A stretch of 64,000 bases of DNA from Thermoplasmata archaeon (GTDB lineage: Archaea; Thermoplasmatota; Thermoplasmata; Methanomassiliicoccales; Methanomethylophilaceae): positions 248,001-312,000 of the forward strand of contig SUTB01000001.1 in the NCBI GenBank assembly GCA_015063125.1, given 5' to 3'. Positions 1 through 39,633 of this stretch are shown one piece after another. The number at the start of each line of letters is the position of its first letter. Within the stretch, counting starts at the first letter, position 1. The notes beneath the pieces were generated by a model that was not told the origin of the DNA, searched no databases, and was given only the letters and a program-made list of their open reading frames with translations. Position numbers and translations under genes: made by a program.

Positions 1-641
1 TCGATGTCTGCGAAACTTCCGAACATCCACCCGGTTATGCTGTGGATTTTATCGGCTGTCAAAGACATTATGATCGTTGTGGCAGAGCTTAGGCCCGCTG
101 CGATAATCACCCCGCCTAGGACATAGCTCATAGCTTTTCCGCCTGCTGCTTCTGCCACGACCATAGTGGCGAAAAAAGCACCCACCGCTCCTGCGATGGC
201 CCCGATCGGTGCAAGCATGAATGAGAATGCCCATCCTGTAAGCGATCCACCCAAGGTAAATAGGACGACCCCGAACGATGCACCCGATGACACACCGGTC
301 ACGTACGGATCTACCAAAGGGTTGTGGATCATAGCCTGCATAACGGCTCCAGCGATGGCTAGGCCAGCACCAACAAGTATGACTGCAATGGCACGTGGAA
401 TCCTGAGGTTTAAGATGACCTTGCCGCTCATGTCTTCTGGATTGCCCCCTGTTATTATGATCTGCCAAATCTGATGAATCGCATCACCAATCTCGATAGG
501 ATACGCACCTACATTTAGGGAGATCAAGAAGAGAAAGAACAGTGAGATTATTCCTGAAATGACGATAAGTGTAGCTCTTCTGCGCGTCTTTTTGACGCCA
601 GTGAGCTCCTGCGGATTATTAGAAATCGCTGAATCATTCAT
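1..641 (-). CDS. FecCD-family ABC transporter permease, 3' part outside window
   Basis: Integral membrane permease of an iron-chelate or corrinoid importer. The frame starts at the ATG at 639-641 and stays open to base 1, so about 213 residues are seen and the C-terminal third is missing. A hydrophilic N terminus (MNDSAISNN) is followed by a first membrane span. The family signature follows: an arginine-proline start (NLRIPRAIAVIL), then NPLVDPYVTGVSSGAS, which matches the FecCD/BtuC consensus around transmembrane helices 2-3. It lies 41 bp downstream of the binding-protein gene on the same strand, so the two form an operon; the ATPase is presumably beyond the window. Substrate cannot be told from sequence. 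Confidence 0.9.
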   Translation of the reverse strand, partial: MNDSAISNNPQELTGVKKTRRRATLIVISGIISLFFLFLISLNVGAYPIEIGDAIHQIWQIIITGGNPEDMSGKVILNLRIPRAIAVILVGAGLAIAGAVMQAMIHNPLVDPYVTGVSSGASFGVVLFTLGGSLTGWAFSFMLAPIGAIAGAVGAFFATMVVAEAAGGKAMSYVLGGVIIAAGLSSATTIIMSLTADKIHSITGWMFGSFADI

Positions 642-658
642 ATTATCATCTAGAAAAG

Positions 659-676
659 GTCGGGCCGAGGCCCGAC
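659..676 (-). promoter_or_regulatory. intercistronic hairpin between binding protein and permease
   Basis: Perfect 8-bp inverted repeat GTCGGGCC-ga-GGCCCGAC in the 41-bp gap between the two transporter genes. No T-run follows on the minus strand. A hairpin here would suit partial termination or mRNA protection that keeps the binding protein in excess over the permease; that role is inferred. Confidence 0.5.
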
Positions 677-682
677 TTGGTT

Positions 683-1762
683 TCAGTATTCGTCGAGCCA
701 CTGGATGTAGTTTTCCCAGTCTTTGCTGGTGACGATGTTGGGGACTTCAACTCCGGTGTCCTCAGGGTTTATCATTGCAGCGATGAGTGCGGCACCGTTA
801 ATGAGGTGGACGGTATTGTATCCGCAAGCTTGGAAGGGCTTGTATTCGAGGCACCAGAACATATCGTTTTTGATGCAATCGACCTCTCCAAGGACGGGGT
901 CCGCTTTCCATCCTGCAACCACTGTTGCCCAATCAAGACCCATTGACATATCGTCGAGAATTATGAAGTCGGGGTTTGCTTTTGCCAATTCCTCCTGGAA
1001 TTGGATCTTGGTTGTGGCATTAACAGGCATGGAGTTGACAAATCCGACACTGTTTAGCAAGGTGATGATCATGTGGTTCTTGTAAATGTAGAATCCATAG
1101 CTTCCGCTGTCGCAGATGTATGCATACTTTTTACCTGCTAGATCAGACTTGGCAGCGACCTCTTTGATCTTTTCGAATGCACTGGTCATGGCATCTGTGA
1201 TTTTCTTGGTCATGCTCTGCTTTCCGAGGATCTTACCAAGAAGACTGTAGTTGTCAAGACTGTCCTGGAATCCGTACTCGTTATTGAGGACGATGACGGT
1301 GATTCCGAGGGTCTGAAGCTGTGTCATTTTAGAGGTGTCCGAAGAAATCTGTTCTTTGGAGATGATGACAATATCAGGTTCGCATGCCGCGACCGCATCT
1401 GCAGTCCAGTTGTAGTATGAACCCACGATCGCGACCTTTCCAGATTCGATATCTGCTACTAAGTTTCCAGGGTAGTCTAAGTCCAGATCAATTCCAACTA
1501 TATCGGACGAAACATCGAATACACTAGCGTAGGATGAAACTCCGACGATGGCCTTATTGTATCCAAGGTCAGAAACGATTTCTGCACCGACAACGTCTGT
1601 ACAGACAATTCTTGTGGGGTCCTTTGTCAGTTCAATGACGTTTCCTGCGTAATCTGTAACACCTTCCTTCTGATCATGGGGTACCATGAAAACGGCTATT
1701 GCAGCTACTGCGACAACCGCAATCACAAGGATTCCGATAATAGACATCGTCTTTTTGTCCAT
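683..1762 (-). CDS. ABC transporter substrate-binding protein (FecB/BtuF type)
   Basis: Membrane-anchored binding protein that would deliver an iron chelate or corrinoid to the permease encoded next. It is 359 residues. Residues about 6-27 form a hydrophobic signal anchor (SIIGILVIAVVAVAAIAVFM) with no lipobox cysteine. The rest fits the cluster A periplasmic binding fold: an early RIVCTDVVGAEIVSDLG segment, a middle DIVIISKEQ segment, the long helix before the second lobe, and PDFIILDDM late. The start is supported by a TATA box (1791-1800) about 30 bp upstream. An upstream element shared with the other uptake locus (see 1801-1816) suggests co-regulation. Substrate assignment is inference from family only. 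Confidence 0.85.
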   Translation of the reverse strand: MDKKTMSIIGILVIAVVAVAAIAVFMVPHDQKEGVTDYAGNVIELTKDPTRIVCTDVVGAEIVSDLGYNKAIVGVSSYASVFDVSSDIVGIDLDLDYPGNLVADIESGKVAIVGSYYNWTADAVAACEPDIVIISKEQISSDTSKMTQLQTLGITVIVLNNEYGFQDSLDNYSLLGKILGKQSMTKKITDAMTSAFEKIKEVAAKSDLAGKKYAYICDSGSYGFYIYKNHMIITLLNSVGFVNSMPVNATTKIQFQEELAKANPDFIILDDMSMGLDWATVVAGWKADPVLGEVDCIKNDMFWCLEYKPFQACGYNTVHLINGAALIAAMINPEDTGVEVPNIVTSKDWENYIQWLDEY

Positions 1763-3406: not shown

Positions 3407-4405
3407 TCAAAGTTTAACGACATCCATCGAGTACACGCTCATGGTCGGAGAGTAAGTCTTCAATTCAGAGCTGTGTATCTCGATGCGGTGTCCTTTCTCT
3501 TTCATTTCTTTCGTAAGATCATCGCAGAATTGAGGGAATTCCGCCCTTTCGATGATCTTGTACATGTGTGCTGTCGCACCAGATTTCATCCGATCCATTG
3601 CGAATCCCAGGAATCTGTCGGCTATCTGGGGCAGGTTCATTATCACACGGTCGGCCATGGGCAGGTCATAGATGAGTTTCGAGGAATCGCCCGTCATCGG
3701 TCTGATGCATCCGATGTGATTTTTATCGGCATTCATCCTTGCGAAGCGTTCCGCTTCAGGATTGAGGTCGATTGAGTAGATGACATCGGGTTTTGCCAAT
3801 TTCCCTATGACGGTGCCGAACGGGGCGACGCCGGCGAACATGTCGATTATCGTCTCGCCATCCTTCACAAGGTTGGCGATCCTGGACCTCTCCGAGGATA
3901 GCCTTGGGTTGAAGTAGACCTTGGAAGGGTCGGTGTAGAGCTTCACACCGAATTCCTTGTGTACGGTTTCCGAGGAACCATCTCCTGCGATCTTCTCCAG
4001 ATCTCTGATCCTGAAGTCGCCTTTGACGCCGTAGTCATGGAAAACCACACGGATGTTCCTGTTGACCTTGATCAGTGCATCCCCTATCTGGTGTCTGTAA
4101 TCCCAAAGTTCGTCGGGGATCTTGATCATTGCGACATCGCCGACGACATCGAATGAACTGGGAAGGGCATCCTCCAGATCCTGGGGCACCTTGGCGATCT
4201 CCGTGTAGTCGGACACCTTGTGCTCCTGGACCCCGAGATCGCAGTCTAACACCTCGTATTCTTCGAAGGAATCGCATCTGATCGGTATTAGAAGGAAGTC
4301 GCCTTCAGCGCGTATTTTGGAATCAAGGTCCAGAAGGTCCTCTGATACCAGACGTGAACGGACGGATTCCCCGTCTTTCTTTGGTACGCGAAGGCATTTG
4401 ACCAT
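3407..4405 (-). CDS. trm5: tRNA (guanine37-N1)-methyltransferase Trm5
   Basis: Class I SAM-dependent enzyme making m1G37 in tRNA, which prevents frameshifting at CCN, CUN and CGG codons. It is 332 residues. The N-terminal region (1-75) with alternating charged and hydrophobic stretches matches the small D1 domain. The central part shows VYFNPRLSSERSRI, then the SAM motif DMFAGVAPFG, IDLNPEA for ribose binding and MNLPQIAD as the NPPY-like motif IV. It follows the transporter ATPase by 23 bp on the same strand and may share its transcript. Confidence 0.93.
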   Translation of the reverse strand: MVKCLRVPKKDGESVRSRLVSEDLLDLDSKIRAEGDFLLIPIRCDSFEEYEVLDCDLGVQEHKVSDYTEIAKVPQDLEDALPSSFDVVGDVAMIKIPDELWDYRHQIGDALIKVNRNIRVVFHDYGVKGDFRIRDLEKIAGDGSSETVHKEFGVKLYTDPSKVYFNPRLSSERSRIANLVKDGETIIDMFAGVAPFGTVIGKLAKPDVIYSIDLNPEAERFARMNADKNHIGCIRPMTGDSSKLIYDLPMADRVIMNLPQIADRFLGFAMDRMKSGATAHMYKIIERAEFPQFCDDLTKEMKEKGHRIEIHSSELKTYSPTMSVYSMDVVKL

Positions 4406-4428: not shown

Positions 4429-5247
4429 TTAAAGGATGTCGTGATCCTTCCTAAACCTCTTCGGGAGGACGAATAGCTCTCCGTCCTTGTCAAGTCCGAC
4501 CGATGCGGATACCTCGTAGACATCCTCGATGAGCTCAGGGGTTATGACATCCTTGGGCTTACCTATGGCCACTATCTCCCCCTTCTTCATGATGATGCAC
4601 AGGTCGCAGTACCTTGCCATCAGAGAGATGTCGTGCTCCGCAACGAGGATGGTCATGTCCTTCTTGACCATGGCGCTCAGGTACTCCATGACCTCGAGCT
4701 TGTACTTCATGTCGAGGTGTGAAGTGGGTTCATCCACCAACATCAATCTGGGCTGCTGGACGTATGCCTTGGCTATGAGGACACGCTGCCTCTCTCCGGA
4801 TGAGAGCATGCTTAGCGGGCGGTCCTTGAGATGGGAGACTCCAAATTTCTTGAGAGCATCCTCTACGAATGACTCGTCCTCCGGGGATTCCCACCACATG
4901 TTCTTCAGATAGGGATATCTTCCGAGGATCACGGTCTCATACACCGTCAGTCCGAAGCTGGCCTTCAGCTCGGCAGGGACATTGGCAACGATCTTCGCAA
5001 TCTCGCTGGGGCTCTTGCCCTTGACGGATTCACCATCGATGAGGACGTCGCCTTCCGTGATGTCGTGCAGCCTGTTGATGCACTTCATCATAGTGGACTT
5101 CCCACATCCGTTGGGTCCAATCAATCCCACCAGCAGTCCGGGGCCGATCTTGTAAGATACTCCTCTCACTGCATGGTATCCGTCTTCGTAGATCTTGTGA
5201 AGGTCCCTGAGCTCCAGCAGAGGGGCCTCGTTGTAATCATCCGTCAT
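4429..5247 (-). CDS. ABC transporter ATP-binding protein (FecE/BtuD type)
   Basis: ATPase that drives the propeller-permease encoded just upstream. It has Walker A GPNGCGKST, the Q-loop region, the signature LSSGERQR, Walker B LMLVDEPTSHLD and the switch His in LVAEHDIS. The spacing between Walker A and the signature, and YPYLKNMWW before it, are typical of iron-siderophore/B12 importers. The start MTDDYNEAP at 5247 overlaps the permease stop by 11 bp, a sign of translational coupling; a longer reading from 5292 would lie inside the permease gene and adds a non-family Cys-rich leader. Confidence 0.92.
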   Translation of the reverse strand: MTDDYNEAPLLELRDLHKIYEDGYHAVRGVSYKIGPGLLVGLIGPNGCGKSTMMKCINRLHDITEGDVLIDGESVKGKSPSEIAKIVANVPAELKASFGLTVYETVILGRYPYLKNMWWESPEDESFVEDALKKFGVSHLKDRPLSMLSSGERQRVLIAKAYVQQPRLMLVDEPTSHLDMKYKLEVMEYLSAMVKKDMTILVAEHDISLMARYCDLCIIMKKGEIVAIGKPKDVITPELIEDVYEVSASVGLDKDGELFVLPKRFRKDHDIL

Positions 5248-8215
5248 ACATCTTCCCCCTCTTGATAAGGAGCCAAGCGAACACAGGCACACCTATGATC
5301 GTGGTGATGGCTCCGACAGGTAATTCGAATCCGATGATCAGCATCCTTGACAGCAGATCCGCTGCTATCATCAGGAATCCTCCGAACGCCATGGACGCAG
5401 GCAGCACAAGCCTGTGATCCCCTCCAAGCATCATACGGCATAGGTGGGGGATGACCAGTCCGACGAATCCGATGATTCCGCAGAACGCAACACAGATGGC
5501 GGTCAGGACCGACGCCAATGTCAGCATGATCAGGTTGAACTTCTTGACATTCAAACCCATCTGCTTGGCCTGATCCTCGCCCAGAAGCACGAGGTTGAAT
5601 TCTCTGGCCCAGAATAGGGATGCAAAGGAAATTGCGAACGCAGGCAAGAAGACAATCCAGACCTTAGACCAGGTTATTTCCGCGAAGGATCCGTAGAGCC
5701 ATGAGAGCGCACCGGACACCTGGTCTCCGGCGAATGTGAGCATCAGCGTCTGAGCTGCACCGAAGACCAGTCCGACTATGACTCCGGATAGGACATAGTT
5801 CACAGACGATCCTCCCGATCTGTTGGCTAGGATCATGGTGCATCCGAATGCGACGATTCCTCCCAGGGCTGCCGCGATAGCGGTCAGATAGATCGAGTGA
5901 GACGGGAACAGTCCGAAGAACGTGAAGTCGAACGCTATCACGGCTATGGCTGCGGTTCCTGCTCCTGAGCTGACTCCCATTATGTACGGGTCGACCAGCG
6001 GATTCCTGATGATGGCCTGATACATCGCACCGGCCACAGAGAGTCCGATACCTACTGCCAGGGCAACCAGGGTCCTGGGCAGCCTGGCGCTGTAGACCAT
6101 CAATTCATCGTATGTGAGGTTCTGTCCGCCCTTGCCTATGGCCGAGAACAGTGCGGAGAACATATCCCCGAGCCCCATAATGGAGGTAGGTCCCATGCAC
6201 ATCGATACGAGTGCGACAATGATTGTCAAAGTTATTCCTACACCCATTACAAGCCACAATCTGTGCCTGCGAAGGGTGTTGTGGGTGTAATCCTCTCCGT
6301 ACAGGAAGTGTCCGAAGGAATCCTTCAGCTGAGAGAACGGGTGCTCCCATCCCTTAACGAATCTGAGGAATGCATAGATCGCTACGAAAATGATTACGAC
6401 GGCAGCGACAACGCCTATCACCAGCCAGAGGTTGCTGTCGTCTACCGGATCAACAGGATCGATGTTCTTCGGTTCATCGAATCCTCCTTTCACCATGCAT
6501 ACGGACACATCGTTGCCGACAAGGTAATACCCGTCGATGAAGATCGCATTGGTCATGCAATAATCTGTATAATCCTCTGGAACCCAGAATTCTCCGATCC
6601 TCTTTCCGGAGAGATCGAATTGCATAACCGGCTGTGCCTTATTGTAGCTGGTGGCGACCAGATATTCGCCGTTGACGAGCATGAGTGCCGAGTGGGTGAC
6701 ATAATTGTTGGTGCTGAGGATCTCTAATTCCCCTTCCAGGCTTATACGGCCGACGGTGGGGGTTGCGTCCTTGTTGCATGAGAAGTATATGCCTGCGAAA
6801 TCATCTGTGAATACCGGTGTGACATAACCGCTGACGGAACCCAGTTCCGATTCGGAGTAGTACACTTCCTCCAGTCCCAATCCTCCGTTGTCGATTATCT
6901 TGTAAATCGCTATTCCGTAGATCTGGGAGCTCATGACGAGTCCGTCGTTGAACGCCATGCCCAGGTACTTGTCCCCGTTCCATTCCATGACGGCCACGGG
7001 GCAGACTGAACCGGTTACGGTTTCTCCTTTCTTCTTCTCATAGACCTTTTGGTCATACAGCAGGGTTCCGTCCTTCTTGTCGATGATGTATAGGTGGCCG
7101 TCGAACTGTCCAGCGTACACATAGGCATCATCGATGGATGCCGCATATGTGTAGCTTACTCCTCCTGTCTGACATGACCAGATCGGGTTCAGATCGAGAT
7201 CGAAAGCATAGATCAGTCCGGTCACACCTTTGGATACTATAACTCCAGAATTGTAGCTGATAGATGTGAAACCGTCCGAGTTTTTCTTCCCTTGGACTCC
7301 TTCAGGAACCTCGTTAGGGATCACCACGTCAGAATGTACCGCAGGTACACTATAGAAAGTCGTGACCTCTTCCGATTCGCTCATGTTACCTGCTGCGGTC
7401 CTCCAGTTGATCTTGTAGAGCTTACCGAACGAAGACTGGATGTAGATGTTATCTCCGACGATCGCTGCGCTCATGACCTCGTAATAGGTCGTGGGGTATC
7501 TGAAATACCATTTCACATCGCCCGTATAGAAGTCCATGCATACCATGGTGGAATTTCCGGAGCTCTTGCCCATTCCATATCCGAACTTGACGAACACATA
7601 GCCCCCAGCAGTCATAGGCTGAGAGTATGAACCGAAGTTGCCCTCGAAACCGTTGCTTCCCCAGACGAATTGGGAGCTGTCATCGGACACTTCTGCGTTG
7701 ATGTTGTATGTCATGGTGGACTCTATTCCCATACAGGTGATCGATTGATGGTCGGGTGTTTCCGCGGGCACGGTTCCTGTCGGATAGAAACCGACCGCGT
7801 AAGTTCCCGAATAATCTGACGACAGATCCTTCTCCACGGACCAGGCCCAATCATCCCATTTGTAGACGATCCATTGCGCCTTTACTGTGATCGAAGATGT
7901 TCCGGGTTTGTTGAGCACGTCATCCGTCGTCTCAACGCCGGTTCCAGTCACGTACGATGTCTTGCCGTCTATGGTCAGTGTGGAACCGGATATGCTACAT
8001 TGATGACCGTTGGCCTTCAGAGTCTCGGTTATGACGTCACGGACGGAACCTGCCGTCTTGATTTCATACCAATCGACTCCACCGTTCCCCCTATCCAGAA
8101 GGAGAGAGTTGCTGTGGTCTGTCGCATCAGAGTCCGACACTGAATCAGAAACGAAGACGGCTCCCAAGAAAGCTATGATTATAGCTATGATCAGAACACT
8201 TTTGCCGTATTTCAT
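5237..8215 (-). CDS. secreted beta-propeller fused to FecCD-type permease
   Basis: A 992-residue fusion. Residues 1-30 are a hydrophobic export segment. Residues about 33-135 resemble a transcobalamin-like/DUF4430-type domain (GGVDWYEIKTAG, SGSTLTIDGK, GTYAVGFYP). About 150-590 are repeated beta strands of a PQQ-like propeller (GDVKWYFRYP, GKLYKINWRT, GHLYIIDKKDGTLLYDQ). A membrane span at about 597-620 is followed from about 652 by a complete FecCD permease (RLPRTLVALAVG, RNPLVDPYIMGVSSGAG, LLGEDQAKQMGLNV, FCGIIGFVGLVIPH). The frame is continuous, with no stop or shift at the junction. The start has GAGGAATTGG just upstream. The gene lies 9 bp after the binding-protein gene. I infer that the propeller sits outside the cell and handles ligand before transport. 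Confidence 0.9.
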   Translation of the reverse strand: MKYGKSVLIIAIIIAFLGAVFVSDSVSDSDATDHSNSLLLDRGNGGVDWYEIKTAGSVRDVITETLKANGHQCSISGSTLTIDGKTSYVTGTGVETTDDVLNKPGTSSITVKAQWIVYKWDDWAWSVEKDLSSDYSGTYAVGFYPTGTVPAETPDHQSITCMGIESTMTYNINAEVSDDSSQFVWGSNGFEGNFGSYSQPMTAGGYVFVKFGYGMGKSSGNSTMVCMDFYTGDVKWYFRYPTTYYEVMSAAIVGDNIYIQSSFGKLYKINWRTAAGNMSESEEVTTFYSVPAVHSDVVIPNEVPEGVQGKKNSDGFTSISYNSGVIVSKGVTGLIYAFDLDLNPIWSCQTGGVSYTYAASIDDAYVYAGQFDGHLYIIDKKDGTLLYDQKVYEKKKGETVTGSVCPVAVMEWNGDKYLGMAFNDGLVMSSQIYGIAIYKIIDNGGLGLEEVYYSESELGSVSGYVTPVFTDDFAGIYFSCNKDATPTVGRISLEGELEILSTNNYVTHSALMLVNGEYLVATSYNKAQPVMQFDLSGKRIGEFWVPEDYTDYCMTNAIFIDGYYLVGNDVSVCMVKGGFDEPKNIDPVDPVDDSNLWLVIGVVAAVVIIFVAIYAFLRFVKGWEHPFSQLKDSFGHFLYGEDYTHNTLRRHRLWLVMGVGITLTIIVALVSMCMGPTSIMGLGDMFSALFSAIGKGGQNLTYDELMVYSARLPRTLVALAVGIGLSVAGAMYQAIIRNPLVDPYIMGVSSGAGTAAIAVIAFDFTFFGLFPSHSIYLTAIAAALGGIVAFGCTMILANRSGGSSVNYVLSGVIVGLVFGAAQTLMLTFAGDQVSGALSWLYGSFAEITWSKVWIVFLPAFAISFASLFWAREFNLVLLGEDQAKQMGLNVKKFNLIMLTLASVLTAICVAFCGIIGFVGLVIPHLCRMMLGGDHRLVLPASMAFGGFLMIAADLLSRMLIIGFELPVGAITTIIGVPVFAWLLIKRGKMYDG

Positions 8216-8224
8216 TCCAATTCC

Positions 8225-9628
8225 TCAGATGTATCCTAGATACTTTGAATATTCAAGATAGTCAAGATAATTGTCGCCGATGTACTTCGGCATGCTTTCT
8301 TTCTCGAAAGCTTCGGGATATAATATCTCCCCCAGAAGTTCCACCATCTGCGGGAATCTGGGAGATGAGCGTGATGCTAGATCGCTGCATTTACCCGTCA
8401 GAATGTACACTTCTCCGGTCTTGTAGGCGTTAGTCGCCTTCCAGGTCTCGTAGAGGCTGGAGTACATGAGGTCCCAATCCTCCTGAGTGCACTGATAGCT
8501 GTCATTCACGATGATTATCGTATCGGGGTTGTAGCGCGGGATCATCTCGGTGCTTATGTGGCTCCAACCGTCCACCGAGGAGAACGCGTTGGTGACGTAG
8601 ACGGTCCTCAGGATGTCATCGATGTATGTTTCTGCTCCTGCCACATACGGCGATACATCGGTCGAGAGGGCTATCATGATCTTTTTGTCGGAATGGGGCA
8701 CCTTTTGAAGCTGGTCATCTATCAGACCTAAGGCCTCTTGGCTGTTTTCCCATACCATGTCGAACGCCAGATCATAGCCTATGGCGCGGCTGGTGATGTA
8801 TGTGTTGTTGAATATCGTGCGGATGTCATTTCCGCTGTAGAGAACGACTGTGTTCACAGTCGATCTTGCAGTCTTGCATAGTTGAATCTGGTTGAATTGA
8901 GAACCATCACCGACAATTATGTCCGGTTTAAGGTTCATGATTATCTCATAATTGGGGTCGGTGTATGTTCCCGTTATGGCTATCTCGCCACGTTTCTTCC
9001 CCTCATTTACCTCTTCAGGGTAGTTACTGTAGTAGTCTGTACCTACGATGTTGTTCCCTGCACCCAGGGCGAATATCGTTTCAGTTGCCACAGGCGACAT
9101 CGTCACTACCCTGTATGATTGCGGGTATCCATAAATGCAGACGCCGGTATAATCCACGGCCACAGTCGGAGTCTGTCCTTCAGATCTGTAAGCCCATGCC
9201 ACAACCGCATAGTCCTTGGCATCGATGTTGTATGTGGTGGATCTTACCCATTCGGTGCTCCCTCCGTTCTCCACATACCAGAGTTCCCATGTGTGGGTGG
9301 AGTCATTCTCGACACCGTTGATTTCTAGGACCTTACCAGCGGAATCGATTGTCAAGGCATATTCGTTCTCGTCACAAGCATCCTCTAGTACTTCTATCGG
9401 ATCGCCGTTGATATTGAGGTCTGCTTCGAACCATGTCACATCATACTCATCGAAATCGATGAGTATTCCCATAGCGTGATTCTGTGTAGCTTCAGTGGTG
9501 AATACAGCTCCGACAACTCCAAGAATCACGCCGATAAGGACGATGCCTAGGGTGAGGACGGTCTTCAGATTGAAGATTTTCTCAGCGGTCATTGGAGGAT
9601 TACTCCTACGAGATTTATCACCACTCAT
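8225..9628 (-). CDS. substrate-binding protein with N-terminal transcobalamin-like domain
   Basis: A 467-residue exported, membrane-anchored protein. Residues about 24-46 are a signal anchor (TVLTLGIVLIGVILGVVGAV). About 50-165 form a domain resembling DUF4430/transcobalamin beta-domains (VTWFEADLNING, GKVLEINGV, HTWELWYVENGG). From about 172 the BtuF/FecB fold begins (RVVTMSPVATETIFALGAGNNIVGTDYYSNYP) and runs to the end with PDIIVGDGS and the connecting long helix. Start 9628 is the first ATG; an ATG at 9592 with GGAGTAATCC ahead is also possible. It is the second gene of the uptake operon. The domain pair suggests a corrinoid ligand; iron chelate remains possible. Confidence 0.87.
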   Translation of the reverse strand: MSGDKSRRSNPPMTAEKIFNLKTVLTLGIVLIGVILGVVGAVFTTEATQNHAMGILIDFDEYDVTWFEADLNINGDPIEVLEDACDENEYALTIDSAGKVLEINGVENDSTHTWELWYVENGGSTEWVRSTTYNIDAKDYAVVAWAYRSEGQTPTVAVDYTGVCIYGYPQSYRVVTMSPVATETIFALGAGNNIVGTDYYSNYPEEVNEGKKRGEIAITGTYTDPNYEIIMNLKPDIIVGDGSQFNQIQLCKTARSTVNTVVLYSGNDIRTIFNNTYITSRAIGYDLAFDMVWENSQEALGLIDDQLQKVPHSDKKIMIALSTDVSPYVAGAETYIDDILRTVYVTNAFSSVDGWSHISTEMIPRYNPDTIIIVNDSYQCTQEDWDLMYSSLYETWKATNAYKTGEVYILTGKCSDLASRSSPRFPQMVELLGEILYPEAFEKESMPKYIGDNYLDYLEYSKYLGYI

Positions 9629-9687
9629 TCAGCAACACCAGACATAATGGAAGGGGTTTGGTAAAGGGTTTAGTTATCTTGATCCAA

Positions 9688-10338
9688 TCAAGCGTTCTTC
9701 TTCTTCATGTAGAAGACTGCTGCAACGATAATCACGATGATGACAACCGCGATGATGATGTAGAGCAGCATTCCGGAATCATAGCCGGTAACGGAGGTCT
9801 GGGGCAGAAGGTGGTACTGATCTCCTCCGAACAACTGGATGTGGAGGTATTTCGACGCGTCTGCTCCGACCGGAAGCTCTGAAATGTAGTAGCATTCAGA
9901 GAAGATCGTTGTAGGACAAAGGGTAATCGCAGTGGTGTCATTCTCCACGTACTGGGTAGAGATTTCATCGACAAGTGCCCATTTTCCATCCTTTCCGTAG
10001 AAGGTTGATGCCCACCATTTTGAGTCTTCGGGGTAGACAATCCACATTGTCGAGGGATTGATATAGTAATCCTTGACGCTGTTGACCTGGCCCTCGACGA
10101 TCTTTTGGAGTTCGACTGTAGCCTTAGCGGCCCATGCAGCGTTGTTCTCTTCGCATGTGAATGTGGACCACTGTTTAGCAGTCACCTTCATGTCTTCATC
10201 GATGATCTCGATGTAGAGATGATATGTCTTCTGCTCACCAGAAGCTGCATCATTGTCCTCTGTTGCGACAACAGCGAAAGCTGTAGCAACGAACATGGCG
10301 ACGACTGCAACTGCGAGAATCTTCGAATTCATCTTCAT
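9688..10338 (-). CDS. secreted protein with C-terminal membrane anchor, first gene of uptake operon
   Basis: A 216-residue protein with signal peptide (residues about 4-24, ILAVAVVAMFVATAFAVVA), an extracellular domain of about 160 residues with HLYIEIID, STMWIVYP, GKWALVDE, and a C-terminal span (LLYIIIAVVIIVIIVAAVF) ending in KKKNA. It would sit on the outer face as an accessory capture protein for the transporter behind it. Strand pattern and Trp-rich segments recall the N-terminal domains of the next two proteins, but homology is weak by eye. The ATG at 10338 is favoured because GGTGAT lies four bases upstream and a TATA box lies at 10383-10392. No known function is recognised. Confidence 0.75.
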   Translation of the reverse strand: MKMNSKILAVAVVAMFVATAFAVVATEDNDAASGEQKTYHLYIEIIDEDMKVTAKQWSTFTCEENNAAWAAKATVELQKIVEGQVNSVKDYYINPSTMWIVYPEDSKWWASTFYGKDGKWALVDEISTQYVENDTTAITLCPTTIFSECYYISELPVGADASKYLHIQLFGGDQYHLLPQTSVTGYDSGMLLYIIIAVVIIVIIVAAVFYMKKKNA

Positions 10339-10382: not shown

Positions 10383-10411
10383 TCTATATAAGGTGGTTGG
10401 ATGTAATGTCC
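10383..10411 (-). promoter_or_regulatory. promoter of uptake operon with GTTGGATG element
   Basis: CTATATAAGG read on the plus strand gives CCTTATATAG on the minus strand, a good TATA box about 47 bp before the ATG. Immediately upstream (10396-10411, plus-strand reading) is GTTGGATGTAATGTCC, 13 of 16 bases like the element at 1801-1816 but in opposite orientation. Both contain a GGAT...(A/G)TCC pseudo-palindrome. Probably an operator for a metal or corrinoid regulator. Confidence 0.5.
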
Positions 10412-10465: not shown

Positions 10466-11263
10466 TCATTCATCCTCTATGATTTCCTCAGGAGCCCCAG
10501 CAAATTTGACCAGTGCGTACTGTTCCATGAAGTGCAGGTTGCCTGGCAGGACGAGCGTGAAAAGAGGCTCTCCGAGATCCATCTTCAGCAGGTCCTGCGG
10601 ATATCCTGCGAAGATCTTCTCATTGGGCGATCCCACTTGTGATGCGACGCACAGGATGGTCTTGTCGTCGATCAGACCTTCCTGCCATTTCTCCTCTCCA
10701 AGCATCAGCCATTCGATGGCCTCATGGGCGGTCATGTACCTGAGCTCGTCAGCGTGTATGTCCAGGAGGATCATCGTGTGTAGCCCCATCTTCTTGTTGG
10801 CCATTATGTGGTCATAGGGGGACTTGGGGTGGTATCCCTGCTCGATGAACGGCAGCGTCACCGCCCTTCCGAACTTGTAATTCTGCAATCCGAACACGGT
10901 GGGGCATGCGGAGAATATGCTGATCCCGTTGAACAGCCTCACTGGGATCCCGGCCTCTGCGGCCTGTATCCTCAGGTCCACATGGGTGGTGGCGGACATG
11001 GGGTCGCCTGCAGTGACGAATCCGACCCTCATCTCGAGGGCATCCTTGATGATGTCGTCGTTCTCTTCGACCTGTGCCCTATAGAGTACCTTGATCTTCT
11101 TGCCGATGGCAGCTTCCAGGTCCTCGACCTTCGTACCAATGAGGAACGATGTGTAGAATTCTGCATAGATCTTGTCGCATTCCTTCAGTGCGTTGAACGC
11201 TTTGACGGTCATTCCATCAGTGCCGCTGAGGCCCAGTCCGACGAAGACGAGTTCGGATGTCAT
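10466..11263 (-). CDS. dphB: diphthine synthase
   Basis: SAM-dependent methylase that trimethylates the histidine-derived side chain on elongation factor 2 during diphthamide synthesis. It is 265 residues from MTSELVFVGLGLSG. Tetrapyrrole-methylase-fold marks are the N-terminal GLGLSG loop, FVTAGDPMSATTH (GDP motif) and NGISIFSA. FGRAVTLPF follows and VYLPGNLH-like VLPGNLHFMEQ is at the end. An in-frame ATG 27 codons upstream has no family match, so 11263 is chosen. It is separated from the uptake operon by 54 bp plus the promoter region and is an independent housekeeping gene. Confidence 0.92.
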   Translation of the reverse strand: MTSELVFVGLGLSGTDGMTVKAFNALKECDKIYAEFYTSFLIGTKVEDLEAAIGKKIKVLYRAQVEENDDIIKDALEMRVGFVTAGDPMSATTHVDLRIQAAEAGIPVRLFNGISIFSACPTVFGLQNYKFGRAVTLPFIEQGYHPKSPYDHIMANKKMGLHTMILLDIHADELRYMTAHEAIEWLMLGEEKWQEGLIDDKTILCVASQVGSPNEKIFAGYPQDLLKMDLGEPLFTLVLPGNLHFMEQYALVKFAGAPEEIIEDE

Positions 11264-11338
11264 CGGAGTCACAATGGGCTCATCCGATATATTGATGACC
11301 GTTCGGGATGGATGATTATGGTTCTGACTGACGTAAAT

Positions 11339-11355
11339 TAACATTATGAATGTTA
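11339..11355. promoter_or_regulatory. 17-bp palindrome upstream of dphB
   Basis: TAACATT-atg-AATGTTA, a perfect inverted repeat 76 bp upstream of dphB and at the left edge of the hairpin-rich gap. Its size suits a dimeric regulator. It may serve dphB, transcription to the right, or both. Confidence 0.35.
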
Positions 11356-36156: not shown

Positions 36157-36618
36157 ATGGACTTCGGCAGTGAGAATGAGACAAGGGGTTTTGTCAGCGG
36201 CATGGACGAGCTAGACGCTGCCGTGAAGATGATGACCGCCATGCTCAACCGTTTCAACAAGGCCGAGATCTACATTGGCGTTGGAAAGGACGGCAAGATC
36301 CTGGATAGGGAATTCTCAGAGGAAGACGTGTCCAAAGTTTCCGAGAGGATGGGTGAGCTGATCAATCACATGCCGCAGACCGCCGTATCATTGGAAAGGA
36401 CGGAGGACGGGAAGGGATACATACGCATATCCGCCACGGGGTTCGAGACGCCCTATTCCTTCGGCAGTTGGTTCTACGTCAGGAGGTACCGCTACGTTGA
36501 CCGGGGTGGCTCCAAGTCTGTGGAATGGGTAGAGAACCTCACCTGCGGTATGAAGAGGCACCGATCGTTCTCGCCCGTTAAACGTATTATACTGTATAGC
36601 GATACTGGAACATTATGA
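36157..36618 (+). CDS. stand-alone AlbA_2/Schlafen-like domain protein
   Basis: A 153-residue protein with the pattern of AlbA_2 (divergent AAA-associated, Schlafen core) domains: a helix AVKMMTAMLNRFNKAEIYIGVGKDGKIL, then the helix DVSKVSERMGELINHM. Next come VSLERTEDGKGYIRISATG and PYSFGSWFYVRR, the usual closing strand where kin read xPYxxxGxYYxR. Relatives are fused to helix-turn-helix domains or act as RNA nucleases; here the domain stands alone. Its stop overlaps the CobD-like start by four bases, so it is co-translated with corrinoid genes, perhaps by chance of insertion. Assignment is by pattern only. Confidence 0.6.
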   Translation: MDFGSENETRGFVSGMDELDAAVKMMTAMLNRFNKAEIYIGVGKDGKILDREFSEEDVSKVSERMGELINHMPQTAVSLERTEDGKGYIRISATGFETPYSFGSWFYVRRYRYVDRGGSKSVEWVENLTCGMKRHRSFSPVKRIILYSDTGTL

Positions 36619-37727
36619 AAGGTCGCATACTGCCCCGCAAGGAACTGTCCGAATTGCCGAAGACCGTCCATGGCGGTCAGGCCTGGAGGATGGAGGGTAT
36701 CGAGGACTACAGCCATAACCTCAACCCGTTCGGACCTCCGGAGAACCTCGCGGAGATCGTCGCGACCGCTATCGCCGAAATAGGCCATTATCCCGACGAC
36801 ACCTGTGCCGAGCTTAAGGACACGGTGTCGAAGACATTCAACATCGATCCCGAATGCATCACGATAGGGGCGGGGTCGTCCGATATCATCAGGAACGTCC
36901 CCAACACCTTCTTCTCACCGGGGGACAAAGTCATAATCAACAGACCGAGCTTTGCCGAATACGCCCAGCAGTGCAGGCTCGTCGGAGCTAACATAGTTTG
37001 GAATGAATTGCTTCCGGAGAATGATTTCCGCATCGATCTGGATTCGCTGATGTACAACGTCGGTGACGACACCAAGGCGCTGTACATCTGCAACCCGAAC
37101 AATCCTACGGGAAGAGTGGAGCCCAGAGACAAGATCGTCAGCATAGTAAGGGAATGCGAGGACCGCGGAGTCCTTGTGTTCCTAGACGAGACCTTATTGG
37201 AGCTCGTTCCCGGATACGCTGACATAACCTTGACCGGAATGGTCGACAAGTTCACCAACCTGATCATCGCCAATTCCCTGACGAAATCCTTTGCCATACC
37301 CGGCATCAGGATCGGTTTCGGTCTCTCGAATCCCGACATCATCTCCGAGATGGAGAAGGTCAGGATGACATGGAACGTCGGCCAGATCGAACAGACGGTG
37401 GCCAACATCCTCATCAGAGACTATCTGGACTATGTAGACCAGGCAGCAGCAGTGATGGGCGAGGAATCGGAGATAATGAACTCGTCGCTCAACAACGTGG
37501 GATTCCCCGCTGGACCGGTATCGGATTCGTTCTTCTACTTCAACGACCTGAGCCCGCTGGGGATGGACTGTGCGCTCTTCCAGAAGAAGATGCTCTCCCA
37601 TGGTATAATGGTCCGCGACTGCTCGTCTTTCGGGCCCGAGTTCAAAACGTATGTGAGGTACAGTGTGAAGGACAGGGAGCGCAACTGCAGGTTCCTGGCC
37701 GCTGTGGATTCGGTTATCAATGGGTGA
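36615..37727 (+). CDS. cobD: threonine-phosphate decarboxylase-like PLP enzyme (CobD/HisC family)
   Basis: Likely makes aminopropanol phosphate from L-threonine phosphate for the corrinoid nucleotide loop. It is a 370-residue fold type I PLP enzyme: HGGQAWRMEGIEDYSHNLNPFGPP opens as in CobD, GAGSSDIIRNV, NPNNPTGRVE, FLDETLLEL and the PLP lysine in NSLTKSFAIPGIRIGF. The HGG...D(Y/F)S.N.NP start is typical of CobD, not histidinol-phosphate aminotransferase, and the following genes are cbiB, cobS and cobY. It begins inside the stop of the AlbA_2-like gene. Confidence 0.87.
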   Translation: MKGRILPRKELSELPKTVHGGQAWRMEGIEDYSHNLNPFGPPENLAEIVATAIAEIGHYPDDTCAELKDTVSKTFNIDPECITIGAGSSDIIRNVPNTFFSPGDKVIINRPSFAEYAQQCRLVGANIVWNELLPENDFRIDLDSLMYNVGDDTKALYICNPNNPTGRVEPRDKIVSIVRECEDRGVLVFLDETLLELVPGYADITLTGMVDKFTNLIIANSLTKSFAIPGIRIGFGLSNPDIISEMEKVRMTWNVGQIEQTVANILIRDYLDYVDQAAAVMGEESEIMNSSLNNVGFPAGPVSDSFFYFNDLSPLGMDCALFQKKMLSHGIMVRDCSSFGPEFKTYVRYSVKDRERNCRFLAAVDSVING

Positions 37728-37731
37728 TCCG

Positions 37732-38739
37732 ATGGAGCTCTGGATGGATGCGCTGTCGATAATCGTTCTGGCCATCCTGATAGACCGTTTCATAGGCGAT
37801 GTCCCCAATTCAATACACCCTCTGAGGTGGATGGGAAATTTACTGGATGCCATAGATCGCAGGATCAAGAACAGGTCCACTGCATGGACATCCGTGCTAG
37901 GATTCCTTTCATATCTTCTGGTCTTCCTGCTGTTCGGAGGCATCGCGATCGTCATCATCACTGCCGTCCACTACTTCGTATCGCAATATGACGAGATATG
38001 GGGAGAGATCGCATGGATCGTCGTCACTGCATTCATCTTCAAGGTGCAGTTCGCGATATTCTCGTTCAGACACCACTGCGATCCGATATGCGAGGATCTA
38101 GACGCAGGTAGGATCGAGGATGCCGCTTCCAAGGTCCAGATGATCGTCAGCAGGAACACGAAGGGGATGGATGCGGAGCATATAGCATCATCATGCTGCG
38201 AGACCGTCTCCGAGAATCTGGTGGACAGCATAGTGTCCCCTACATTCTACTTCGGACTGCTGGGCATAGCAGGATCGATCATGTTCAGGTGTTCCAATCT
38301 CATGGATGCCATGTGGGGATACATCAACGACATGTACGGGAGGCTCGGATTCTTCCCTGCCAAGTTCGACGATGTTCTCGGGTGGCTCACATCCAGGGCA
38401 TCCCCGTACTTCGTAGCATTGGCCGCTTTGATCCTACGTATGGATTGGAGGGCAGCCGTTCCTGCTGCCAAGGAGGAGCACACGAAGACTCCTAGCCCTA
38501 ACAGCGGTTGGCCCATGACGGCGGTTTCCGCGGCACTCGGGATATCGATGGAGAAAAAAGGAGTCTATGTTATGGGCAAGGGGCCGATGCCGACGACCAA
38601 GGATGTTCAGCGCTGCATGAGGCTCGTAGAGCTCACCTCGATACTGTTCATGCTGCTGATATGCTTCCCATTGTTCGCATTCCTGGGGATTCACGTTCAG
38701 CTCTGGCTGGAGGGGTTCCTCCTTACTCTGTTTTTATAA
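37732..38739 (+). CDS. cbiB: adenosylcobinamide-phosphate synthase CbiB
   Basis: Membrane enzyme joining aminopropanol phosphate to adenosylcobyric acid. About 335 residues with four or five spans. Family marks: DRFIGDVPNSIHPLRWMGNLL, IVSRNTKGMDAEHIASSCCETVSENLVDSIVSPTFYFGLLG, RCSNLMDAMWGY, RLGFFPAKFDDVLGWLTSR, PNSGWPMTAVSAALG. The ATG at 37732 is chosen since GGTGAT lies three bases upstream; that site overlaps the end of the preceding gene. A TTTTTATAA stretch at the end of the gene may be a promoter for cobS. Confidence 0.94.
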   Translation: MELWMDALSIIVLAILIDRFIGDVPNSIHPLRWMGNLLDAIDRRIKNRSTAWTSVLGFLSYLLVFLLFGGIAIVIITAVHYFVSQYDEIWGEIAWIVVTAFIFKVQFAIFSFRHHCDPICEDLDAGRIEDAASKVQMIVSRNTKGMDAEHIASSCCETVSENLVDSIVSPTFYFGLLGIAGSIMFRCSNLMDAMWGYINDMYGRLGFFPAKFDDVLGWLTSRASPYFVALAALILRMDWRAAVPAAKEEHTKTPSPNSGWPMTAVSAALGISMEKKGVYVMGKGPMPTTKDVQRCMRLVELTSILFMLLICFPLFAFLGIHVQLWLEGFLLTLFL

Positions 38740-38755
38740 CTGAATACGACATATT

Positions 38756-38776
38756 GCTCAAGTGGTTAGAGCATCC
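38756..38776 (+). other. tRNA D-arm-like fragment between cbiB and cobS
   Basis: GCTCAAGTGGTTAGAGC has the exact look of a tRNA D arm (GCTC stem, AAGTGGTTA loop, GAGC). No acceptor, anticodon or T arm surrounds it. It could be a remnant of a tRNA gene or a coincidence in a 57-bp gap. Confidence 0.25.
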
Positions 38777-38796
38777 ATCCACGGGAGAGGACAGAT

Positions 38797-39633
38797 TTGG
38801 GAGCATTGAAGGCTTTGGTTTCATTCTACACCATATTCCATATGAACATCACGCAGGATGACATGGACAGCATGGAGAAGAAATTCTACCTCACTCCTCT
38901 TGTTGGCCTCGTGTTCGGATTCATGGCTCTTTTGGCCATATCCATCTTGGATTTCCTGGAAATCCGTTTCGGGTTCGGGAATGTTCTGGTGATGGCAGTG
39001 ATCCTGCTGCTCATCCCATATGTCGGGAGCAAATTCCTCCATTTCGACGGACTCACCGATTTCGGGGACGGAATGATAGTGTCTGGAGAGCAGAGCGACC
39101 ACATTCGTGCCCTCAAGGACACCCTCGTCGGTGCTGGAGGAATCGGGGTGGCGTTGATCACGGTCCTGTGCTCTTTCGCATGCTACACCATGTATGATGC
39201 CAGGGCAAGTGCGATCCTTCTTCTCCCTGCGGTGGAGATCCTTGTGAAGAACGCGATGGTCGTGGCCGCATCCTTTGGAAAACCCGGTAACGGTATGGCT
39301 GCCAGACAGGTGGAGAAGACCACCGGTAAATCAGCCGTTCTAGGATGCATCGTTACCATAGCGGCGGTCCTTTTGCTGTTCGTAGTCACCGGATCGATTC
39401 TCATGTTGGTGCCTGCGTCTTTCTCGTGGGAAGGGATGCTGATGCTCTGGGCACCGCCGATAGTAGCAGGATTCATCGTATCCATCATCGTCGGTTTCAT
39501 CATGGCAAGGACTGCCAACAGAGTATTCGGAATGGTGAACGGGGATATCCTGGGCGCTACCAACGAGGTCGCCAGACCGTTCCTGCTGTTCTTCATGATC
39601 CTAGCGTTCGCAATGGTAACGGAGATGCTCTGA
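38797..39633 (+). CDS. cobS: adenosylcobinamide-GDP ribazoletransferase CobS
   Basis: Membrane enzyme that joins the lower ligand ribazole to adenosylcobinamide-GDP, the last coupling step of corrinoid assembly. It is 278 residues and polytopic. Signatures: KFYLTPLVGLVFG, FLHFDGLTDFGDGMIVSG (acidic metal motif), KNAMVVAASFGKPGNGMA and VNGDILGATNEVARP. The start is TTG at 38797, supported by GGAGAGG seven bases upstream and by the family N terminus (LKALVSFYT), which an internal ATG at 38842 would lose. It is directly followed by cobY with overlapping stop and start. Confidence 0.93.
   Translation: MGALKALVSFYTIFHMNITQDDMDSMEKKFYLTPLVGLVFGFMALLAISILDFLEIRFGFGNVLVMAVILLLIPYVGSKFLHFDGLTDFGDGMIVSGEQSDHIRALKDTLVGAGGIGVALITVLCSFACYTMYDARASAILLLPAVEILVKNAMVVAASFGKPGNGMAARQVEKTTGKSAVLGCIVTIAAVLLLFVVTGSILMLVPASFSWEGMLMLWAPPIVAGFIVSIIVGFIMARTANRVFGMVNGDILGATNEVARPFLLFFMILAFAMVTEML

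Follow-up and report, generated by a model that had tools for sequence, protein, structure and literature searches.

Among the closest described systems to the operon reported here is BtuFCD, a type II importer of the FecCD family, which is composed of a substrate-binding protein (SBP), a FecCD permease and an ATPase. FecCD permeases work as dimers. In the Methanomassiliicoccales, BtuC was found to be abundant and to form five clades, with a BtuFCD set next to adhesin-like proteins, and the text of that study makes no mention of a propeller (Xie et al. 2024, PMC10804542). The beta-propeller of Bacteroides BtuG binds B12 (PMC10404256, PMC6143338). BtuG is a separate seven-bladed surface lipoprotein next to btuB that lids an outer-membrane barrel; its binding face is acidic, and BtuG1 has a second B12-binding domain. 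CbrT, a proven cobalamin/cobinamide S component (PMC5997447), belongs to the ECF importers, the mechanism of which is unrelated. Transcobalamin and haptocorrin, the animal carriers of B12, have a beta domain (Pfam DUF4430) besides an alpha-barrel domain. No published report of a propeller fused to FecCD or BtuC, of DUF4430 together with cobalamin, or of a propeller in Methanomassiliicoccales was found in the open-access literature, a search in which subscription papers may be missed.

The window, the whole stretch of 64,000 nucleotides that was analysed, contains an operon of four minus-strand genes in the order surface protein (216 aa), SBP (467 aa), fusion protein (992 aa) and ATPase (272 aa). 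As in BtuFCD, an SBP, a FecCD permease and an ATPase are encoded together. The operon probably specifies a corrinoid importer of the BtuFCD type, taking up cobalamin, other cobamides and/or cobinamide, with capture domains welded onto the permease channel. Its features are as follows.

10385..10390, minus strand: TATATA, 47 nt ahead of the first gene's ATG and possibly an archaeal TATA box (read directly from the sequence)
9688..10338, minus strand: surface protein P0003, 216 aa, with a signal sequence, one divergent transcobalamin/DUF4430-like domain, a C-terminal TM anchor and a KKKNA tail (ORF, hydropathy, profile comparison)
8225..9628, minus strand: SBP P0002, 467 aa, with an N-terminal membrane anchor, a transcobalamin-like domain and a Peripla_BP_2 domain (profile search, hydropathy)
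9119..9493, minus strand: the SBP's transcobalamin beta-like (DUF4430-like) domain, residues 46-170 (AlphaFold2 pLDDT 87.5; Foldseek)
5237..8215, minus strand: fusion protein P0001, 992 aa, a presumed capture ectodomain joined to a FecCD permease (ORF, profile search, AlphaFold2, homologues)
7766..8125, minus strand: the fusion's transcobalamin-like domain, residues 31-150 (aligned with its SBP counterpart by hhalign; order of secondary structure)
6449..7765, minus strand: PQQ/BamB-type beta-propeller, residues 151-589, probably eight blades (AlphaFold2 strand pattern, Foldseek, hmmsearch)
6344..6448, minus strand: TM helix TM0, residues 590-624, bringing the chain back into the cytoplasm ahead of the permease (hydropathy 3.06; AlphaFold2 helix at about 594-620)
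5240..6265, minus strand: FecCD permease domain of the fusion, residues 651-992 (PF01032 at full length, 276 bits)
4429..5247, minus strand: importer ATPase P0004, 272 aa, its start overlapping the fusion gene by 11 nt (ORF, profile search)

A preliminary description of this DNA had placed the operon at 5237-10338. The three genes it named are present with intact reading frames (10338-9688, 9628-8225 and 8215-5237), and the ATPase gene (5247-4429), which it omitted, must be added. The surface-protein gene lies 59 nt upstream of the SBP gene, from which the fusion gene is separated by 9 nt. The first product is an anchored surface protein, as had been proposed, with a signal and a C-terminal TM anchor in its hydropathy profile. 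In the SBP, Peripla_BP_2 matches residues 174-411 with 85.7 bits, and a hydrophobic segment occupies residues 17-49. The operon is flanked by genes which, from reading their proteins by eye, we take to be dphB (10466-11344) and trm5 (3407-4405). An Rfam scan of the window found no cobalamin riboswitch, tRNAs being its sole matches, and scans for sigma-70-type promoters and terminators, with models ill-suited to archaea, gave results at chance level.

The 992-residue frame holds, in order, a signal, a small beta/alpha domain, a PQQ/BamB-type propeller, a TM helix, a cytoplasmic linker and a complete FecCD permease, so that the presumed capture part and the transport part are one chain, as first described. 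FecCD (PF01032) covers residues 663-985 over profile positions 1-311 of 311, with 276 bits, above the curated cut-off. The PQQ_2 match is marginal (29.5 bits against a cut-off of 27.6). The AlphaFold2 model of residues 30-640 is confident (pLDDT 91.5, pTM 0.88) and displays the small domain, a propeller of about 33 strands, probably best read as eight blades, and then a helix at about 594-620. By hydropathy, a short charged stretch separates TM0 from the helices of the permease that follow it; the extra helix TM0 indicates that the propeller lies outside the cell and that the permease keeps its usual orientation. The fused ectodomains are acidic, like the binding face of BtuG, with a mean of -6.7 net charges per 100 residues in 61 proteins. 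Acidity is frequent among surface proteins.

Compared to BtuFCD, therefore, the window's permease differs in its external domain, propeller and additional TM helix, and both the SBP and the extra surface protein carry transcobalamin-like domains. Compared to BtuG, the propeller has about eight blades by strand count and is a covalent part of a cytoplasmic-membrane permease, in an operon without BtuB; the likeness is in the layout of a surface propeller joined to a B12 importer, and no relation in sequence is claimed.

Membership of the PQQ_2/BamB-type propellers is indicated by both profile and fold: in Foldseek the propeller groups with BamB and similar PQQ/quinoprotein folds (E 5e-14), and hmmsearch matches it to BamB and to designed 'Cake' propellers. 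The family name and weak matches to PQQ dehydrogenases could suggest a quinoprotein-type enzyme domain that alters a substrate outside the cell. We consider this very improbable, as the matches reflect the repeat fold, the best Foldseek match, BamB, carries no PQQ, and pqqE is reported to be absent from Methanomassiliicoccales (PMC10804542).

The SBP was said at the outset to carry an N-terminal domain similar to that of the fusion, and the two domains are indeed homologous (hhalign probability 96%, E 2e-9), with a similar order of secondary structure elements in their models. The surface-protein domain is more distant, with a probability of 89% (E 2e-6) against the SBP domain and 71% against the fusion domain; in relatives, the surface protein contains one or several repeats of it. 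When the model of the SBP domain was compared with the PDB by Foldseek, the best nine matches were all transcobalamin, the isolated beta domain among them in both its free and its cyanocobalamin-bound form, and haptocorrin ranked 16th. The nine E values are weak (7e-3 to 6e-2, TM about 0.5), and a best value of only 7e-3 makes the predicted fold consistent with the transcobalamin beta type, short of proof. The original label 'transcobalamin/DUF4430-like' is thus upheld by the comparison between the N-terminal domains and by Foldseek of the SBP domain, and not by Pfam, as the DUF4430 cut-off was reached by no protein scanned. The window's domains gave no match to DUF4430, 2 of 39 relatives of the SBP domain matched it below the cut-off (E about 0.05), and a search of the window's own genome returned nothing at 1e-3. 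In a profile search of PDB sequences, the SBP domain had no match and the fusion domain no meaningful one. Unlike transcobalamin and haptocorrin, the window's domain has no alpha-barrel domain beside it and is part of an importer.

The same fusion protein was found when 147 genomes of the order Methanomassiliicoccales were searched, and the regions retrieved afterwards yielded a set of 61 fused loci. The design is widespread in its archaeal family, as 60 of the 61 loci belong to one family; the exception is genome G016 of family f5. The transcobalamin-like domain accompanies the propeller in nearly all loci. Sixteen named relatives came from a scan with the single protein. Every title is archaeal (Methanomethylophilaceae, 'Candidatus Methanoplasma' and MAGs of that sort), and several stem from the guts of horse, sheep and deer. 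Outside the order, in 390 genomes of the phylum, the matches listed include no full-length relative of the fusion ectodomain. That the long frame is an artefact of assembly or gene calling is hardly credible: the fusion recurs at 61 loci in independent genomes, single-contig ones included, which excludes chance or misassembly, and no support for reading the 992-codon frame in this way was found. The assembly error at the junction that the preliminary description had considered is thereby ruled out. Nor are propeller and permease always separate genes in relatives, since they are fused at these loci; separate forms exist in a paralogous operon type.

Some variation within the fused set can also be observed. 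The fusions at L054, L098 and L117 are longer, at about 1200 aa, and two extra transcobalamin-like repeats were read by eye between propeller and permease in L054. A relative at L012 (G042:C20) has one in-frame TAG, which may not end translation, since TAG can stand for pyrrolysine in these archaea.

A tree of 124 FecCD domains was constructed by a quick method with SH-aLRT support only. A single clade of 106 (support 100) unites the fused permeases, those with a separate propeller and the plain cob-linked ones, and all 15 other FecCDs of the window's own genome included in the tree, out of 17 FecCDs in that genome in total, fall outside it. In other families, plain operons of SBP, FecCD (about 347 aa) and ATPase continue directly into cobD-cbiB-cbiS-cobS, cobD mostly lying -52 to +115 nt from the ATPase gene. 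These plain loci were picked by permease similarity, with their neighbours ignored. Defined as at least two of cobD, cbiB, cbiS and cobS within 8 kb, linkage to the corrinoid genes was observed at 18 of the 61 fused loci (6 genera), at 14 plain loci and at none of the 16 other FecCDs of the own genome. NCBIfam identifies CbiB, the bifunctional salvage enzyme CbiS and CobS among the linked genes; for cobD the best model is threonine-phosphate decarboxylase, with a score below its cut-off. The dphB/trm5 setting of the window operon is shared by many of these loci: it recurs at cob-linked fused loci (e.g. L042, L043, L047) and at the plain loci L118, L133 and L139. In the window's genus, the cob genes have moved away from the importer, and in the window itself they are found as follows.

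36615..39633, plus strand: cobD-cbiB-cobS corrinoid-assembly genes of the same genome, about 26 kb from the importer (they adjoin the importer in other genera)

The domain and the propeller also occur in other arrangements. In a sister lineage (L120:484-3618), a propeller with PKD repeats is fused to the SBP instead, in a protein of 1044 aa, and the operon ends in cobD-cbiB-cbiS-cobS. The paralogous operon type encodes an SBP, a separate protein with domain and propeller (625-700 aa), a permease and an ATPase. One locus inside the paralogous clade, L112, is fused, so fusion or fission has occurred more than once. Upstream propeller proteins of about 890 aa are seen in the paralogous operon at L055:395-3046 and L057:1584-4259; judged by eye, they seem to contain Flg_new (Listeria-Bacteroides-type) repeats.

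In other families and orders, secreted proteins with such a domain and a PQQ-type propeller adjoin EcfT, a double ATPase and an S component, as a complete operon or as parts of one at contig ends (L202, L203, L204, L205, L208, L210, L213 and L214). A profile of five of the S components matched 6FNP (ECF-CbrT) in the PDB with E 1.6e-16, the next match being 0.006, and the N-terminal domains of the ECF-linked proteins match the profiles of the transcobalamin-like domain weakly (16-39 bits). These CbrT-like operons differ from the window's importer, which is not of the ECF type.

The window was also compared with G077, a genome listed as the same species, over 14.6 kb of aligned sequence from these two genomes only. 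In the flanks, identity is mostly 98-100%. It falls to 52-76% between about 10.3 and about 6.2 kb; from there to 5.65 kb, inside the permease, it is 78-82%, and beyond that point 96%. Per gene, nucleotide identity is 99% in an acyl-CoA ligase and 98% in dphB, compared to 66% in the SBP and 73% in the fusion. At synonymous sites, the SBP and the propeller have reached saturation, compared to a dS of 0.06-0.10 for acyl-CoA ligase, dphB and trm5. The neighbouring FecCD operon (window 1-1762), taken as a control, is mostly 98-100% identical. In this same-species comparison, the sharp island of divergence (52-82% identity against L039) thus covers window 5650-10300, over the extracellular parts of the operon. 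The sequences suggest that the extracellular part was replaced by a divergent allele through recombination (allelic exchange); alternatively, one of the two assemblies may be chimeric. Taken more broadly, we give about even chances to a portable archaeal corrinoid-capture module of transcobalamin-like domain and propeller, which would have been recruited by BtuFCD-like and ECF-CbrT-like importers, welded to an ABC permease (in one lineage, a propeller joined the SBP) and subject to allelic exchange within a species.

Uptake of corrinoids by the window operon, which the preliminary description raised as a possibility, is well supported, if indirectly, by sequence comparison and models. It is supported by the clade that its permease forms with cob-linked plain permeases, by salvage-gene synteny, including the dphB-trm5 setting, by the match of the SBP domain model to the beta domains of transcobalamin and haptocorrin, by the SBP-propeller fusion in a cob operon at L120, by the similar module in CbrT-like ECF operons, and by 10 matches to B12-binding domains in the genome. 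Several findings count against it. In the PDB sequence search, FhuB and HmuU outrank BtuC as matches of the permease, and the best PDB match of the SBP is a chain deposited as 'iron-binding protein'. The equivalog cut-offs are not reached (BtuC 209/461 and 204/334 bits, BtuF 43/234 bits). The cob genes are non-adjacent in the window's genus, the Foldseek E values are weak, and there is no riboswitch. Finally, another SBP-FecCD-ATPase set of the same genome (L105, G000:C8:28275-38604) lies beside cbiK and a run of corrin-ring genes, so the window operon may not be the sole corrinoid-related importer. As the genome seems able to build the corrin ring on its own, salvage would be a supplement and no necessity.

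Import of another chelate, such as an iron-siderophore, heme or another tetrapyrrole, or a cobalt or nickel complex, would agree with FhuB and HmuU as the best permease matches. FecCD permeases serve all such substrates, and 17 FecCDs in one genome imply several of them. This alternative is unlikely in view of the nesting with cob-linked permeases, the salvage-gene synteny, the transcobalamin-like fold and the CbrT link. A somewhat stronger, though still doubtful, alternative keeps the corrinoid importer and assigns the propeller a structural part only, docking the SBP or surface protein or spanning the S-layer without a ligand. The closest fold is BamB-type, known from protein-protein scaffolds; the ectodomain is far more variable than the permease among close relatives (67% compared to 93-94% identity); and some plain permeases inside the fused clade are without a propeller (tandem copies, L136, L137). 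Opposed to this are the transcobalamin-like domain alongside the propeller in nearly all loci, the occurrence of a similar module alongside ABC as well as ECF importers, and the proven binding of B12 by the propeller of BtuG.

In the favoured reading of a propeller that captures corrinoids, the transcobalamin-like domain and the propeller would hold or funnel the ligand outside the cell, TM0 would cross the membrane and the FecCD domain would form the channel. The likely route would lead from the surface protein or the ectodomain to the SBP and on to the permease, powered by the ATPase. An ABC permease with its own tethered, probably ligand-capturing ectodomain is probably a variant of the BtuFCD-type importer; we found no earlier report of one in the open-access literature, and it offers a natural test bed for the hand-over of a ligand from catcher to channel. 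Methylotrophic gut methanogens depend on corrinoid proteins for their energy metabolism, and corrinoids are strongly contested in the gut; the operon provides a defined target for studies of B12 competition in rumen methanogens. Additionally, with a transcobalamin-like fold linked to microbial B12 importers, it becomes possible to test where the animal B12-carrier domain came from.

As FecCD permeases are dimers, each transporter would carry two propellers. A second plain permease adjoins the fusion at L040, L044, L060, L066, L068, L070, L073, L076 and L093. At these tandem loci, the fused and plain copies fall into different clades, which suggests a single old duplication, and a heterodimer of the two is possible; it would have one propeller per transporter.
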